A stretch of DNA of 22,774 bases from a virus, in the IMG/VR virus record IMGVR_UViG_3300003267_000110, positions 1 through 22,774 of that record. One strand, written 5' to 3'. The notes below the pieces were generated by a model, which saw nothing but the letters and a program-made list of their open reading frames with translations, searched no databases and was not told where the DNA came from. Positions 12 to 22,774 of this stretch are shown in pieces. The translations under genes were made by a program, and so were the position numbers. Position 1 is the first letter of the stretch; each line of letters begins with the position of its first letter.

Positions 12-25
12 GGGGGGTAAAGAGT
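12..25 (+). repeat. Left copy of terminal inverted motif
   Basis: The 14 bases GGGGGGTAAAGAGT lie directly next to the stop codon of the large terminase gene. Their exact reverse complement forms the last 14 bases of the window (22761-22774). A related plus-strand version with GGGGC in place of GGGGTA lies at 22700-22711. Eleven bases precede this copy at the left edge, whereas the right copy is cut by the window end, so the true repeat may be longer than 14 bases. Its function is unknown. It could be a terminal repeat, a shared control element, or an assembly break point. Confidence 0.6.
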
Positions 26-1342
26 TCACACGGATGACTCGTATTTAATAGGGGCTTGCGGGACATCATAAAGTCTTCGATAGTTCACAGCGAGGTAGCG
101 CAATGCATCCACAATGTGAGTTGCCCAATTGTCAAGCGGTTTGCTTTTATAGTGCGCGCGTAATTCGTCATATTCGCGTTGATACTCGCGGAGGGCTCGA
201 ATACCAATCTGGCAGCTTATTTTATCTATTCTAAGTTTCGGAAAGATATAACGCATTGACTCAATCCCATCTTCAAAATTTACCCGTGGCGTCATCTGAA
301 AAAACCAGCCATGCTTACGAGCCATCATCAATCGAGATTCAGTGCTTTCCCATCCTTGATGGCCTTGTTTAACATCATGCGGCATAAAGTGATTTCCCCA
401 TTGGCATCCAAAGGATTTTCGTATTAGCTCTGCTTTATCCAGATAAAATTTCAGCCCTTCGCCAGAGTCATGAAGAATATGAAGAAGATTAATATACTTG
501 CCTTCTAGCTGAAATAACCATCCGGCGGTAGCATCTGTGCCTCCTAAATCCCAGACAGAATGGAGGGGAAGATTCGGATTGGGCCGTAAGTTTGTGAGTC
601 TCCCTTCGGTTTCCATATCGGACATTTCGCGCGTAAAGTAAGCCCCAATATTACCTACGTCAAAATCACAATAGAATTCCTGACGAATCATTTCGTCAGA
701 CATGCCCATTTTCCTGGCTTCAGCAATATGGTAATCAGGAATAACGCGCTGAGTTTTTTCCTCATCTAAAAAGGTTTGCTCAACGGTTAAATGCTGAACA
801 AAATAGCGAGGGTTTTCACGCACCGTGTCCATAACTTCCCAGCCATGATTTTTACCGCGCGGCGTAAATTGGAATATTTCGATACCACCATTCTGAACCA
901 AGATGGGATTAAGATACTGGCGTGCCAAAGGGTTATGCAAACTGAACTCAGAGTAAATAATGGTAACGGGGTTAGTGCCCATAAGACCATTGTAGTTATT
1001 GCTTCCACCTAGAACCATCCTTGAGCCATTGATAAGCTCTATCTCCATTCTAGCCTCATTCTTTTTGGCAATGAGGGCATCCGGAATTGCAGCTAGAAAT
1101 GGCTTCCCGTCAAAATCCATGCCTTTCCATATGACTGAGCGCGCTTGCTGAATAAGTGGAAAAAGATAAACATGCGTCCCTATTCGACTTAATGCCCGTA
1201 AAAGCCATGCTTGTACGGAAATAACATCCTTTCCAGCGCGTCGATGAATCACGGAGCAAATGTTCTTACCTTGTATTACGGCTTTTAAGAACTCTCGCTG
1301 GTAATGTCTTGGAGTTATGCCATAAGGTATTCGTATATACAT
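26..1342 (-). CDS. Terminase large subunit (DNA-packaging ATPase/nuclease)
   Basis: This is the motor that drives phage DNA through the portal into the prohead and cuts it. In the 438 residues I see a Walker A-type motif HRRAGKD at residues 33-39, a Walker B-like strand TIIYSE at 127-132 with the catalytic Glu, and a coupling-type FTPRG at 159-163. An RNase H-like nuclease domain follows: WDLGGTD (Asp265), PHD (Asp323) and HIVDALRY (Asp412) fit the metal-binding triad. The length suits the shorter terminase families (T7 gp19 is about 586 aa). The gene is last in the minus-strand block, 42 bases after the VRR-NUC gene, as in T7 where the large terminase follows the tail fibre. There is no good SD site before the ATG (AAATAGAAATA precedes it), although an in-frame stop lies 12 bases upstream, so translation may be weak or coupled. 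Confidence 0.95.
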   Translation of the reverse strand: MYIRIPYGITPRHYQREFLKAVIQGKNICSVIHRRAGKDVISVQAWLLRALSRIGTHVYLFPLIQQARSVIWKGMDFDGKPFLAAIPDALIAKKNEARMEIELINGSRMVLGGSNNYNGLMGTNPVTIIYSEFSLHNPLARQYLNPILVQNGGIEIFQFTPRGKNHGWEVMDTVRENPRYFVQHLTVEQTFLDEEKTQRVIPDYHIAEARKMGMSDEMIRQEFYCDFDVGNIGAYFTREMSDMETEGRLTNLRPNPNLPLHSVWDLGGTDATAGWLFQLEGKYINLLHILHDSGEGLKFYLDKAELIRKSFGCQWGNHFMPHDVKQGHQGWESTESRLMMARKHGWFFQMTPRVNFEDGIESMRYIFPKLRIDKISCQIGIRALREYQREYDELRAHYKSKPLDNWATHIVDALRYLAVNYRRLYDVPQAPIKYESSV

Positions 1343-2805: not shown

Positions 2806-4149
2806 TTATACAAAATAAAAACCATTTCCAGTCATTGTAATGGCGACCCCACTCACGACGCTGGTATTGTCAAATAAATTAACCGCAGCATTATTGCCTT
2901 GGGCGCCCAGGATGAGTGTACTTGTACCTACGAGTGGCGCCGAAAGTGGAGACGTTTTGCCTGCGCCATAGGTAAACCCCGCGCTGGATAAGTTAATCTG
3001 GTTGACCCCGTTAACTGTTCCTCCGACTGTAATAGGCAAGCCGCCAATCGTTAACAGCCCTGAAGAGGTTGTAAACGTAGGGGTGCACGTAAGTGTAAAC
3101 GAATAAAAAACCATCGAGCCAATGCGTGTATAAATACCAGTCTGTGTAGCATATGAAACACTAAGGTTCCCTGGTGTGCCGAAGGTAAACGTTGGAGTCC
3201 AAGAGGTATTGGATACATAATTGCTTAGGGTGCTACCTCCAAAATTAATACTTGTCGCACTGGCTGCTCCTAGGGTTGGTGTCACTAAAGTAGGGCTCGT
3301 AGCAAAGACCAATGCGCCACTGCCAGTTTCATCGGTAACGGTGGAAGCTAGATTAGCACTAGAGGGAGTAGCTAAAAATGTAGCCATTCCAGATCCCAGC
3401 CCGCTGACTCCGGTAGAAATGGGCAGACCAGTGCAACTAGTTAGGGTTCCTGAAGAAGGGGTTCCAAGAGCAGGCGTGACTAACGTTGGAGAAGTAGCAA
3501 AGACTAAGGAACCACTTCCGGTTTCATCAGTAACGGTAGCAGCTAAATTGGCGCTTGAAGGAGTGCCTAAGAATGTTGCCATCCCAGACCCTAAACCACT
3601 TACCCCGCTTGAAATAGGCAATCCAGTACAGCTAGTTAAAGTCCCAGAAGAAGGAGTTCCTAGGGCCGGTGTTACTAAGCTTGGGGATGTAGCAAATACC
3701 AGCGCCCCGCTTCCCGTTTCGTCAGTCACTGCACTGGCTAAATTAGCGCTACTGGGTGTTGCCAAAAAGGTTGCAACACCTGATCCTAATCCGCTGACCC
3801 CTGATGAGATGGGGAGGCCAGTTCCATTGGTTAAAGTAACCGCTGAGGGCGTGCCCAGATTTGGGGTTGTCAATGCCGGAGAAGTAGCGAAGACAAGAGA
3901 GCCACTACCTGTTTCATCGGTAACAGCAGAGGCCAGGTTGGCACTCGATGGTGTACCTAGAAAAGTTGCTACGTTGCTTCCTAGGCCGCTAACGCCCGTT
4001 GAAATAGGTAATCCAGTGCAATTTGTTAAAGTCCCAGAACTCGGCGTCCCTAGAACTGGTGTAGTTAAGGATGGTGAGGTGGAACCAACAAAAGAACCTG
4101 TTCCCGTCTGGCCTTCTAGGGATGTGTTTACTGCATTAATTTTAGCCAT
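2806..4149 (-). CDS. Repeat-containing second tail fibre / adhesin protein
   Basis: A 447-aa Gly/Ser/Thr-rich fibre-type protein. Residues 1-29 form a short head with no T7 gp17-type attachment domain. Residues 30-289 are four tandem 65-residue units (TPxLGTPSSGTLT..GLPIS.GVSGLGS..ATFL.TPSSANLA..VTDETGSG.LVFATSP.L). Residues 290-447 are a different C-terminal domain (NTSWTPTFTFGTPG... ending GNGFYFV) of the kind found at the tips of phage fibres. Such repeats usually form a beta-rich shaft that holds a receptor-binding tip. The gene follows the gp17-like fibre directly and probably builds the same appendage or a second one. I chose the ATG at 4149 because AGGAGG lies five bases before it; an adjacent in-frame GTG at 4152 would be too close to that site. 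Confidence 0.9.
   Translation of the reverse strand: MAKINAVNTSLEGQTGTGSFVGSTSPSLTTPVLGTPSSGTLTNCTGLPISTGVSGLGSNVATFLGTPSSANLASAVTDETGSGSLVFATSPALTTPNLGTPSAVTLTNGTGLPISSGVSGLGSGVATFLATPSSANLASAVTDETGSGALVFATSPSLVTPALGTPSSGTLTSCTGLPISSGVSGLGSGMATFLGTPSSANLAATVTDETGSGSLVFATSPTLVTPALGTPSSGTLTSCTGLPISTGVSGLGSGMATFLATPSSANLASTVTDETGSGALVFATSPTLVTPTLGAASATSINFGGSTLSNYVSNTSWTPTFTFGTPGNLSVSYATQTGIYTRIGSMVFYSFTLTCTPTFTTSSGLLTIGGLPITVGGTVNGVNQINLSSAGFTYGAGKTSPLSAPLVGTSTLILGAQGNNAAVNLFDNTSVVSGVAITMTGNGFYFV
3283..4062 (-). repeat. Four tandem 195-base coding repeats in fibre gene
   Basis: Four consecutive units of exactly 195 bases (65 codons): 4062-3868, 3867-3673, 3672-3478 and 3477-3283. A degenerate half unit (GQTGTGSFVGSTSPSLT) precedes them and a partial TPTLGAAS follows. 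The protein copies differ at only a few positions; units 3 and 4 differ at four of 65 residues. The DNA copies differ mainly at silent sites. Confidence 0.93.
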
Positions 4150-4154
4150 CACGG

Positions 4155-4160
4155 CCTCCT
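4155..4160 (-). promoter_or_regulatory. Ribosome binding site that fixes the second-fibre start
   Basis: AGGAGG on the minus strand, five bases before the ATG at 4149. It overlaps the TAG stop of the gp17-like fibre gene (4159-4161), so termination of one fibre and initiation of the next are physically linked. Confidence 0.85.
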
Positions 4161-5853
4161 ATACTGCTGTTAAAGTTCCTTGGATGCTGTAACCACTAAA
4201 AGTGTTCGCAGCAACACAAGTTAAAGTAATACAATCATATTGATTGCCAGATGATATCGAGCCGCCTACGCCGCTGGTTGTTGCAGTAGAGCCTATATGA
4301 CATTGTTGAGATGCGTTTTGAGCGATTGTCCATCCGCCGCTGGAACCGCCAACAATAATATATGTGTCTCCTATAATAGGTGATACCGGAAGCGTTAAGG
4401 TAACCAAGGATGCGCCGTTGTTAATGGCATACCGTGAATTAGCCGCTAATGTAGCTGAGGATGTATTTTGGTTAATATTTGTAATCCCTGCTGCGGGAAT
4501 GTCTGATAAATAAGCAACAGTCCCATCACTGTCTTGAAAAGTTGTTGTACGAGCATTGGCCGTATTACCAAAAACAAAACTTTGTAGATGCTGATAAGTT
4601 GTTCCAGTGTTAAAGGTAATTCCTGTATTTCCCAGCGTTGTAATTTGAAAATCAGCCGTACCTTTACAAGCGCAAGTTATACCAATATCGGAAGATGGCC
4701 CATCAGCTCGAATACCAGGGTTATCGCTGCTTATTTCATTAAAAGCCACGACATAATTAACACCCAAGGCAGTTGTATCTAATTTAAGCATATAGTTGCC
4801 AATGCCATCTTTAAAACCATCAAAGGTTGGTGCGCTGGTCGTCGCAATATCTTGGGGAAGTGTTAAGGTGATAGGGCCATCCTCGGGGGTTCCAAAGGTG
4901 CCATTGACTAACACTTGATTCTCAGTGCCTGTAATTGTTGAGACGTTTCCTGATTCGGAGAGCTCAATCCACGATGAGCCATCCCAATACTCAAGCACGG
5001 TATTAGTTGTATTAAATCGTAATTCGGTGCCAGAAGGGCTTCCAGGACGTTGGCCAGTAGTTCCCGAGGGCAAGCCTAAGCCCTCATTTCCTGGAATTAT
5101 GGGGTTATTTGCAAGCCCAATAGTAGGATTTCCTGAAATACCATTTCCATTGGTTATAGAGGTTTGATTGCTGATGCCGGTTAAAGTACGTGTTAGTTGG
5201 ACGCCGGTTGTGGTGGTGTTAACCACAAGGCCACTGTCTAAACTTCCCATGACTTGTGCATTGGGTAACTCGCTGTTAGCCACACGGATTAAATACTCAG
5301 CATTATTGGGCGCAACCCCACCACCTGAGGGCAAGTCATAAGCAATAATGGCAGTTCGGCTTGGATTCATAACCCATGCCTGATTAGCATCTAAGATAGG
5401 TAAGATAACATCAGCGGGTGTGGGGGCCGCGCTTTCGATAGTAGCGCTGACATTATAGTGAGGTGCAACCACGGTGTCATACATCTGCGCTTGCTGATCA
5501 ACCAAGGTTAATATTCCGAAATCCTGATTGAGCATTTCAGGAACAAAATTGGTGTTGGTATATAGGTTTAAGCGTTCAGCGGGAGTATTGCGCACAATCG
5601 TAATCACATCGTTAAGAGTGCGCCCTGATAAAAAAGTGACGCGAACCGTTTCGCTGCCACCAACAAAGGTCACGTTATATAGGTTGGGGTTAACTAGTTG
5701 CGTAATGTCGTTTGCCTCAACCCCATCTGCTCTGGCATAAACATTAATGTCTGTGTCTGCATCTGCTGTCCAATTTGTATTAAATACAGTCTGACCCGCA
5801 GTAGCAACTAGTTGTGTGCGTGGGATGATGTCATCAATCACAACCTGTGTCAT
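4159..5853 (-). CDS. T7 gp17-like tail fibre protein
   Basis: A 564-aa fibre. The N-terminal ~130 residues match the T7 tail-fibre attachment domain: TAGQTVFNTNWTADADTDI, a YNVTFVGGSETVRVTFL strand pair, then IVRNTPAERLN and DQQAQMYDTVVAPH. This part should dock onto the tail hub formed by the gp11/gp12-like proteins. The middle (about residues 250-330) has GTTGQRPGSPSGTELRFNT..LEYWDGSSW and DIATTSAPTFDG, modules widespread in phage fibres. The C-terminus (about residues 460-564; AANSRYAINNGASLVTLTLP, GGWTIAQNASQQCHIG, then GGSI.S.NQYDCITL) is a common distal beta domain, probably receptor-facing. GGGAG seven bases before the ATG is the SD site; the gene starts four bases after the gp16-like gene. 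Confidence 0.93.
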   Translation of the reverse strand: MTQVVIDDIIPRTQLVATAGQTVFNTNWTADADTDINVYARADGVEANDITQLVNPNLYNVTFVGGSETVRVTFLSGRTLNDVITIVRNTPAERLNLYTNTNFVPEMLNQDFGILTLVDQQAQMYDTVVAPHYNVSATIESAAPTPADVILPILDANQAWVMNPSRTAIIAYDLPSGGGVAPNNAEYLIRVANSELPNAQVMGSLDSGLVVNTTTTGVQLTRTLTGISNQTSITNGNGISGNPTIGLANNPIIPGNEGLGLPSGTTGQRPGSPSGTELRFNTTNTVLEYWDGSSWIELSESGNVSTITGTENQVLVNGTFGTPEDGPITLTLPQDIATTSAPTFDGFKDGIGNYMLKLDTTALGVNYVVAFNEISSDNPGIRADGPSSDIGITCACKGTADFQITTLGNTGITFNTGTTYQHLQSFVFGNTANARTTTFQDSDGTVAYLSDIPAAGITNINQNTSSATLAANSRYAINNGASLVTLTLPVSPIIGDTYIIVGGSSGGWTIAQNASQQCHIGSTATTSGVGGSISSGNQYDCITLTCVAANTFSGYSIQGTLTAV

Positions 5854-15411: not shown

Positions 15412-16008
15412 CTATGAGCCAACACTATTGCCGATTATCGTTCCCAAGTTTCTATTGGCTAGTACGGGGAAGGTGTATTGTGTAAATTGCGGTCTATTTT
15501 GAGCCTCTACAGCAGCAGCCATGGCATACGCTTGTTGGCGCTTTGCTTCTATGGGCGCATAGAAATCTGGTCGTTGAGCATTAGACAGCGCCAGATAAGC
15601 TGCAATCTCGTAGACAAAATATTTGACAAAGTGGGCAGGTAGCTTAGAAATATCGGGTTGAAAGATATATTCCATGAACCATTCGCCACTGTATTGCGCA
15701 TATATCTTTGAGTTCTCATAAATGTCCCAAACATAAATATTGGGATAGACTCGAATGGTTTTCAGCCATCCAGCAGGTAGTAAATAAACGGTGAGCCAAG
15801 GCTGAGGAGGCACCTCAATTGACACGGACAATTGCTGAATTTGAGTTGCAAATCGCCAGTTATTCTCAGCAAGAATAGCTGGATAGAGCATATCGAAAGC
15901 TTGTTCGGCTGCGACCACCATCTGATCACCTGCCGTCAAGCTTTCGATAGGCTGATGCCCAAGCTGCGTTATCGCATTCGAGATAATCGAAACTTTAGAC
16001 TCAGCCAT
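15412..16008 (-). CDS. Tail tubular protein A (T7 gp11-like adaptor)
   Basis: A 198-aa protein close to T7 gp11 in length (196 aa). It forms the ring that joins the portal to the nozzle. The opening SKVSIISNAITQLGHQPIES, followed by E..FD.LYPAILAENNWRFATQ (about residues 32-54), is the hallmark of the family: a helical start, then the Asn-Trp-Arg-Phe stretch. A beta section with YLLPAGWLKTIRVYPN follows, and then the C-terminal helix ALSNAQRPDFYAPIEAKRQQ. GGAG seven bases before the ATG is the SD site. It lies 15 bases after the decoration-like gene and nine bases before the nozzle gene, an order that supports the call. Confidence 0.93.
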   Translation of the reverse strand: MAESKVSIISNAITQLGHQPIESLTAGDQMVVAAEQAFDMLYPAILAENNWRFATQIQQLSVSIEVPPQPWLTVYLLPAGWLKTIRVYPNIYVWDIYENSKIYAQYSGEWFMEYIFQPDISKLPAHFVKYFVYEIAAYLALSNAQRPDFYAPIEAKRQQAYAMAAAVEAQNRPQFTQYTFPVLANRNLGTIIGNSVGS

Positions 16009-21726: not shown

Positions 21727-22197
21727 ATGCTCGATTGTTCGCAATTTCGCTCACTGATTATTGAACCCGTTTTATCCAAGTTGCAAGTTTATTCAAAAGA
21801 TGCGGAAGAAATTCTCGTCTTTACGTGCGCCGCAGAATCTTTAGGTGGAACATTGTTACACCAAGTAAAAGGGCCGGCCGTAGGCATTTATCAAATGGAG
21901 CCCAATACCTATACGGATATCTGGACGAATTTTATTCGCGCACGAAATAGAATGGCCACCCTGATGGCCATGCATTTTAATTGCACAAAAATTCCAGAAC
22001 ATGAGCGCATGATTTATGATCTTCATTTCGCCACTGCTATGGCTCGAATTCACTACCTTCGATTTTCTGGGAAACTTCCCGATGCCAAGGATATTGAGGG
22101 GTTGTGGGAGTACTATAAAAAGTATTACAACACCGAGAAGGGAAAAGCCAAGAAAGAAGACTCTATTAAGAAGTATGAACAATTCATTAAATCATAA
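21727..22197 (+). CDS. Lysozyme/transglycosylase-like endolysin candidate
   Basis: A 156-aa protein and the only plus-strand gene. ILVFTCAAESLGGTLLHQV (residues 29-47) and PAVGIYQMEPNTYTDIW (50-66) show the pattern of lysozyme-fold phage enzymes: a helix with catalytic-type Glu37 in A-A-E-S, then G-P-A-x-G-I-x-Q-M-E-P. The later parts ATAMARIHYLRFSGKLPDA and GLWEYYKKYYNTEKGK agree with the C-lobe of the same group. It would cut peptidoglycan, either to release progeny or during infection. There is no signal peptide, so release would need a holin, and I see none in the window. AAGGA about seven bases before the ATG is the SD site. The gene is head to head with the small terminase gene across about 59 bases and tail to tail with the Cys-rich gene. 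Confidence 0.77.
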   Translation: MLDCSQFRSLIIEPVLSKLQVYSKDAEEILVFTCAAESLGGTLLHQVKGPAVGIYQMEPNTYTDIWTNFIRARNRMATLMAMHFNCTKIPEHERMIYDLHFATAMARIHYLRFSGKLPDAKDIEGLWEYYKKYYNTEKGKAKKEDSIKKYEQFIKS

Positions 22198-22276: not shown

Positions 22277-22471
22277 TCATTCACGATGTTTATGGGCCTC
22301 GGAAATGAGGGCTTCTTGAAAGCATACACCGCATATTAGACCAGTCACATGTTCTGACTGCTTAGTTATAGAATAAGATAGCGGCATCCATTTATGATAC
22401 GGCTCAAATCCTGGCTCAGCATGAGCACATCTCCGCATTTTATTTAGCCAATCAGAGCAACATTTTGTCAT
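22277..22471 (-). CDS. Small Cys/His-rich protein, possible zinc binder, 64 aa
   Basis: A 64-aa protein, MTKCCSDWLNKMRRCAHAEP ... TGLICGVCFQEALISEAHKH. Cys4, Cys5 and Cys15 at the front, then C-x2-C (48 and 51) and H-x-H near the end could bind zinc. It is not a match to any finger class I can name. Its ATG overlaps the TGA of the 58-aa gene (ATGA), strong support for translation by coupling. It converges on the lysozyme-like gene. A small regulator or host-takeover protein would fit but is inference. Confidence 0.68.
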   Translation of the reverse strand: MTKCCSDWLNKMRRCAHAEPGFEPYHKWMPLSYSITKQSEHVTGLICGVCFQEALISEAHKHRE

Positions 22472-22644
22472 AAATTATCCCCCATTCCTTCCAATTCGGC
22501 ATCCATCTTATCTAAGGCGAGCATTACGACCATGCGCAATCGCTTTCGATTTTTTCTTTGCAGGCTAAAATCCATCTCATTTGGCAATAAATATTCTGAA
22601 AGCGCCAACAAATCTTGTCGTGTAAATATATCTGTAATCCTCAT
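22468..22644 (-). CDS. Small protein of 58 aa, first gene of coupled pair
   Basis: A 58-codon frame: MRITDIFTRQDLLALSEYLL then PNEMDFSLQRKNRKRLRMVV and MLALDKMDAELEGMGDNL. It is helical with a basic patch (QRKNRKRLR, residues 29-37) and an acidic tail, with no recognised domain. GGAG lies exactly six bases before the ATG at 22644; a second ATG four bases upstream is in another frame and stops after 23 codons. Its stop overlaps the start of the Cys-rich gene as ATGA. Confidence 0.72.
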   Translation of the reverse strand: MRITDIFTRQDLLALSEYLLPNEMDFSLQRKNRKRLRMVVMLALDKMDAELEGMGDNL

Positions 22645-22699: not shown

Positions 22700-22774
22700 G
22701 GGGCAAGAGTGATTTTTTATAGAGGGACGCCCCATAATCCGCTGGTGCCCTCACTATAACACTCTTTACCCCCC
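22700..22774. repeat. Large imperfect hairpin at right edge
   Basis: Two ~32-base arms (22700-22731 and 22744-22774) can pair around a 12-base loop. From outside in: GGGG/CCCC, AAGAGTG/CACTCTT, TTATAG/CTATAA after a five-base bulge, AGGG/CCCT after a two-base bulge, and CGCC/GGTG with one G-T pair. I count 25 pairs. It lies in the non-coding 130 bases beyond the 58-aa gene. No T-run follows on the minus strand. The outer arm contains the 14-base motif repeated in inverse at the left edge. Confidence 0.75.
22761..22774 (-). repeat. Right copy of terminal inverted motif
   Basis: The last 14 bases are the exact reverse complement of bases 12-25. The copy is cut by the window end. It also forms the outer arm of the hairpin at 22700-22774. 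Confidence 0.6.

Follow-up and report, generated by a model that had tools for sequence, protein, structure and literature searches.

Why does this viral record stop at an imperfect hairpin? The window, i.e. the whole stretch of 22,774 nucleotides analysed here, is an entire record of IMG/VR, classed as linear, and the hairpin therefore lies at the record end. It is preceded by a late module with a boundary gene on either side and by two small genes:

Positions 26–1342, minus strand: large terminase gene terL, left boundary of the late module (phrog_2 terminase, 7.8e-22).
Positions 1385–21685, minus strand: late module with tail, internal virion, capsid and portal (connector) genes in a T7-like order.
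Positions 21727–22197, plus strand: transglycosylase-like lysis gene (phrog_3108), right boundary of the late module.
Positions 22277–22471, minus strand: small gene of 64 amino acids; similar frames were seen by eye behind the transglycosylase gene in close relatives.
Positions 22468–22644, minus strand: small gene of 58 amino acids, overlapping the start of the 64-residue gene and beginning 56 bases from the hairpin.
Positions 22700–22774, no strand: imperfect hairpin with 25 pairs and a 12-base loop, the right arm of which ends in the edge of an inverted repeat.

The terminases of the closest relatives are 82–86% identical to that of the window at the amino acid level. Matches of the transglycosylase gene in phage records are annotated as lytic murein transglycosylase or endolysin. 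Within the late module, a frame of 448 residues (2806–4152, minus strand) is made up of repeated units of ~70 residues (GTPSSGTLT...GLPIS.GVSGLGS...), and an open frame of 323 residues (3221–4192, plus strand) runs antisense to it.

The hairpin folds as an earlier note on this DNA had described it, with 25 pairs around the 12-base loop, and the predicted fold spans positions 22700–22772. As RNA, the plus strand has a minimum free energy of -28.3 kcal/mol (z = -4.26; 0 of 200 shuffled sequences were as good) and the minus strand one of -29.8 kcal/mol (z = -2.86). Folded as DNA, the region reaches -14.0 kcal/mol (z = -3.97). Refolding against 1000 shuffled sequences resulted in z = -4.0 for the plus and -3.0 for the minus strand. 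The hairpin beats its shuffled controls, the check proposed in the note, both as RNA (z about -4.3) and as DNA (z about -4.0). The accompanying claim that this is the most structured stretch is tenable for non-coding DNA only; over the whole window it fails, since a fold in a tail gene is stronger, and 14 of 9080 75-base windows (both strands, step 5) match or beat the plus strand of the hairpin. The strongest RNA-type fold (-38.8 kcal/mol, z = -7.3) is located at 15881–15955 on the minus strand, within the tail gene 15412–16008, with the arms ATCGAAAGCTTG and CAAGCTTTCGAT.

One possible role for the hairpin is in transcription: it could separate late from early transcription as a bidirectional terminator or insulator, or it could form the 5' leader of the leftward small-gene pair. 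Its position between the late and early transcription units is suitable, it does lie upstream of the small-gene pair as had been noted (56 bases from the start of the 58-residue gene), and it folds well on both strands. Against this, the T-run is indeed absent, the combination of GC stem and T-run that marks an intrinsic terminator is not found, and no sigma70-like or terminator-like site was detected at 22700–22774. The expectation that related phages would carry the same hairpin with compensatory changes was disappointed: the hairpin is not conserved and no compensatory change was observed. In the nearest relatives a dyad of different sequence occupies the repeat edge (0 of 13 pairs compensated); the equivalent place in other phages holds a different dyad or no special fold, and the best fold differs in each one tested. 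A role in transcription, which would be compatible with the repeat described below, is possible on these data yet rather doubtful. A replication or packaging signal, another role on the list in the earlier note, did not emerge from the analysis. Other readings of the hairpin were set aside. As an RNA element it has no Rfam family in the window or in the loci of five relatives, and the edge dyad of the relatives shows no compensatory change; this reading is further weakened by best folds at the repeat edge that differ from one tested relative to the next. A T7-like promoter in the hairpin arms was considered by eye and dropped, given that the arm motifs are absent elsewhere in the window and that the early module of G003, a close relative, contains O-like replication-initiator and lambda-P-like genes. 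Most probably the hairpin is a dyad particular to this lineage, placed at the repeat edge and serving as a DNA site or operator, not as RNA.

The last 14 bases of the record recur, inverted and without mismatch, at its other end, where the copy begins directly after the terminase stop codon:

Positions 22761–22774, plus strand: inverted-repeat copy at the transglycosylase end, of which the first 14 bases, counted from the late-side edge, are present before the record ends.
Positions 12–25, minus strand: the other, inverted copy of this edge behind the terminase stop codon; the record goes 11 bases (1–11) further.

A 14-base match was reached in 1 of 20,000 trials when the terminal 40 bases of each end were shuffled, and in 0 of 20,000 draws of paired 40-mers from the window. 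The ends extend unequally into the repeat (14 versus 25 bases), unlike the usual k-mer overlap. The repeat visible on both sides of the window amounts to 14 bases, and the early half of the genome is absent from the record. When 21 bases of the repeat were used to look for the early contig of the window's own phage, 0 records were retrieved.

Relatives were collected by retrieving viral contigs that match the transglycosylase protein (21 loci) and the terminase (28 loci, then 62, overlapping the earlier ones). Their contigs often end within a few hundred bases of the terminase or transglycosylase gene. For each record, the sequence that lies beyond the terminase gene, outside the late module, was compared with that beyond the transglycosylase gene. 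Inverted copies of at least 25 bases were present in 30 of the 42 records with both boundary genes (14/17, 3/3 additional ones, and 13/22 of a second set). In these 30 records the visible repeat measures 25–189 bases at 95.7–100% identity, it flanks a late module of ~22 kb, and one copy runs into the record end (13 bases short of it in one case, G053). The late module is thus bounded by inverted copies in the manner of a phage invertible segment in these 30 of 42 records, and by 14 bases of them in the window. The 12 records without a 25-base repeat are the window (14 bases), G006, G024 and nine of the second set. Most of these break off at or within a boundary gene; G061 and G065, however, reach past both. 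Two pairs of records from the same sample, outside the counts for the 42 records, share 116 and 127 bases at 100%.

The shared end lengths cluster at 99, 103–106 and 119–127 bases, and common assembler k values lie close to these numbers. This is expected for contigs that end in a repeat longer than k. The suggestion in the earlier note that 22774 is a site where assembly stopped is well supported, as the record stops at the first bases of the inverted repeat, just as dozens of relatives do. In three more distantly related control phages, phiAX1 (over 50,000 of 50,652 bases), MW202510 and MEP301, no inverted repeat longer than 30 bases was found at E<=1e-3. Fifty stretches in bacterial genomes matched a pattern for relatives and none was confirmed. 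The phage collection searched contained no close isolates (best terminase 36%, best portal about 30% identity).

How the repeat is placed in a whole genome can be seen from five records of 31.6–35.3 kb, which are near-complete circles broken only inside the second repeat copy. Each has one internal repeat, and its two edges recur as reverse complements at the record ends (at 98.7% for the last edge in G041), which gives the map late module, repeat, early module, inverted repeat. Two unique regions split by two inverted repeats on a circular map are therefore found in all five. The internal repeats have the following lengths:

G009: 487 bases.
G025: 497 bases.
G039: 817 bases.
G041: 539 bases.
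G044: 1193 bases.

Read from the late towards the early side, a repeat copy in the relatives has first the 3' end of terL or an edge dyad, then a conserved element together with a C-rich tract, and finally a promoter. Outside the nearest group of the window, the repeat in most records takes in the last terL codons, which results in an orphan terL 3' end behind the transglycosylase gene. Such orphan C-terminal codons (about 20–104) were seen in L066 (6855–7028), L065 (10001–10312) and L012–L016. The conserved element, CTGG-N17-TT-N7-ACC-N-GA (in short CTGG...ACCGGA), is present in 15 of 15 aligned sequences (alignment A3) and is followed by the C-rich tract. The pattern occurs in 16 of 18 sequences examined, one of the 16 lying outside the alignment. 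Treated as RNA, this element has 4 pairs, 0 of them compensated, and no covariation; it might instead be a packaging, origin or recombination site. A TTGACA...TATAAT-like (sigma70-like) promoter, identified by eye, faces the early genes in each copy. In four loci of the nearest group (L039, L042, L040, L059) 0.3–1.4 kb of differing DNA separates the terminase from the repeat, as might be seen at a hotspot for insertions; G003 has a leftward frame of 114 residues within this DNA. In L007 a tRNA-like stretch lies close to the repeat, and no tRNA was called there.

In the assembled records the late and early modules appear in two orders relative to each other. G037 and G039 are identical (100%) over 10,810 bases of late and 4,168 bases of early DNA and represent one strain; G038 is 99.99% identical to G039. 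The early module is joined to the terminase gene in G037 but to the transglycosylase gene in both G039 and G038, and the split coincides with the repeat edge. The orders of G037 and G039 come from different metagenomes. To the junctions we assigned a kind by the orientation of the rec gene (phrog_3657), and in L009 by collinearity with G003. Junctions at the terminase end number 2 of one kind (G003, G037) versus 2 of the other (G009, G035), and those at the transglycosylase end 7 (G020, L009, G036, G038, G039, G031, G044) versus 2 (G025, G041). The junctions counted should not be taken as independent events: G038 and G039 belong to one strain, and the early gene content varies. A perfect repeat of more than 0.5 kb is beyond short-read resolution, and the orientation in any one record may be the assembler's guess. 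Because short reads are unable to cross the repeat, the occurrence of both orders is suggestive and not proof. When the junction on the transglycosylase side was sought for the G037/G039 strain, 6 records were retrieved, 0 of them from the G037 metagenome.

The early modules contain genes that may act on such a repeat. A serine recombinase is encoded in the early regions of the nearest group (3 of 3: G003, L009 and G020) and in no other locus examined. It matches PF00239 (144 bits), the DNA invertase family phrog_125 and the DNA-invertase structures 4m6f (2.3e-29) and 3uj3 in the PDB. In these close relatives the Gin-like invertase gene adjoins the inverted repeat. At the repeat edge, seven aligned sequences of the nearest group share a dyad of about 28 bases of the type AAGTCTGGTTATC...ATAATCAGACTT, with no compensatory change, and full edge dyads were found only at the repeat in the loci checked. 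As judged from sequence, the dyad is consistent with a putative recombinase or repressor site. It is absent from the 25 repeat bases visible in the window. Early modules also encode a RecE-like exonuclease (exonuclease VIII model, 1.6e-34, below the curated cut-off of the model) and, beside it, the phrog_3657 protein. An AlphaFold model of the latter (mean pLDDT 80) has RAD52, Mgm101, Sak, Red-beta and RecT among the 50 matches listed, with a weak best Z-score of 5.8 (<8); Foldseek returned nothing at E<=0.001 for this model. Further early genes encode a protein with an RNA polymerase alpha C-terminal domain (L107, 7983–8570, plus strand; PF03118, 1.8e-20), a thymidine kinase (L106, 6611–7156, plus strand; PF00265) and a C5 cytosine methylase (L107, 16520–17416, minus strand; PF00145).

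Based on these observations we propose the following scheme. The hairpin would lie at the late-side edge of one of two inverted repeat copies, about 0.5–1.2 kb long in complete relatives. The copies would divide a circular-map podophage genome of about 32–36 kb into a late module (~22 kb) with the terminase at one end and the transglycosylase at the other, and an early module with replication and recombination genes. Records stop at the repeat, on the best reading, since its length exceeds the assembler's k and assembly fails to resolve it. Recombination between the copies would keep them identical and flip the late against the early module to yield two isomers. Candidate agents are the early exonuclease/annealase pair and, in the nearest group, also the Gin-like serine invertase, the likely site of which may be the edge dyad. 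That the record stops at the inverted repeat and that recombination flips the two halves of the genome is, in our judgement, probably correct. For the window's own phage, the early half of which is absent from the record, we infer the whole scheme.

Alternatively, the early control region (promoter and late 3' end) could have been duplicated and the duplication fixed as the repeat, so that two convergent early operons share one promoter. The copies would then be kept alike by gene conversion, the genome would have one orientation, and mixed junctions would be assembler errors. This would account for the sigma70-like promoter facing the early module at the end of each copy and for G025, the early module of which reads inward from both ends; the repeat is also too long for short-read assemblers to span. 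However, one strain is assembled both ways in different metagenomes, and each kind of junction is seen repeatedly in different phages. The nearest group has an invertase gene next to the repeat, and gene conversion accompanied by crossover would, between inverted copies, also cause inversion. We regard a fixed duplication as unlikely, though worth weighing.

Many records end at this place, so that position 22774 might be a physical genome end, either a covalently closed hairpin telomere or a terminal repeat. Other records, however, continue through it into 1–13 kb of early genes, the shared end lengths cluster near assembler k values, and the early module meets this repeat at its far end as well. 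A closed telomere like that of N15 does not agree with the continuation of the relatives' records and with a hairpin located wholly inside the record. A physical terminus is very improbable, and the terminus-linked role offered in the earlier note is disfavoured with it, because other records read through the same place into early genes. A chimeric fold-back at the contig end, suggested by the inverted arms and a hairpin ending exactly at the edge, is hardly credible, as the inverted partner of the last 14 bases is 22.7 kb away beside the terminase gene and the same arrangement is present in 30 of 42 records from many metagenomes.

The proposed inversion of the late against the early module can be compared with known systems. 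The G segment of Mu and the C segment of P1 span 3–4 kb, and the serine invertases Gin and Cin invert them to switch tail-fibre genes. The yeast 2-micron plasmid (FLP/FRT) has a circular map with two perfect inverted repeats of about 0.6 kb, a recombination site within the repeat and two isomers. Herpesvirus genomes consist of two single-copy regions separated by inverted repeats, and these viruses encode an exonuclease/annealing pair. The phages described here share with Mu and P1 the inverted copies and, in the nearest group, a phage-encoded invertase of the same family. Here, however, a whole late module of 22 kb is bounded, no gene is seen switched at the edges, and the edges lie behind the terminase and transglycosylase genes and not in fibre genes, as a tail-fibre switch would require. 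With the 2-micron plasmid they have in common the circular map, two perfect inverted repeats, a predicted recombinase site in the repeat and presumably two isomers. That system, in contrast, is a plasmid with a tyrosine recombinase, and amplification is not shown for the phage.

Similarity to herpesviruses lies in two single-copy regions split by inverted repeats and an exonuclease/annealing pair, the annealase being assigned here by weak fold similarity; the kind of virus and its packaging differ, and the repeats here are shorter. Isomerisation of herpesvirus genomes is the subject of PMC3415443. Large invertible blocks are already known from the L-region of Halobacterium phage phiH, described in PMC6210493 as an invertible segment of 11–12 kb flanked by copies of ISH1.8/ISH12. 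There, too, a large replication and regulatory block of a tailed-virus genome inverts at flanking copies. The repeats of phiH are an insertion sequence, whereas here they consist of the phage's own control region and terL 3' end and occur across a clade. Among isolates, Methylophilales phage MEP301 and Pelagibacter phage Hodr have a similar portal and late module with a similar podophage gene order, and MEP301 likewise carries a recombinase, a YqaJ exonuclease and an ERF protein; the portal, however, is only about 30% identical, and no inverted repeat was found in MEP301. A literature search conducted mostly outside subscription journals returned no description of this inverted-repeat architecture.

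The hairpin is ordinary in itself. The inverted-repeat architecture that it marks is not, and the importance of the hairpin is its position at the edge of a long inverted repeat. A bolder version of the proposed scheme would see an environmental podophage clade with a herpes- or 2-micron-like genome, in which perfect inverted repeats serve as paired early control regions and recombination sites, the halves flip during infection, the flip turns replication of the circle into double-rolling-circle or annealing-driven concatemer formation, and the added invertase of one lineage drives the flip; this we offer as speculation with a low chance of being right. The common stopping point of many records in this clade is explained by the inverted repeat, which the genome carries and which assembly leaves unresolved. 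Many "fragments" of 20–25 kb are then the late half of a genome of 32–36 kb. If the halves do invert, this would be a tailed phage that isomerises like herpesviruses and has recombination genes next to its repeats, joined in one lineage by an invertase.
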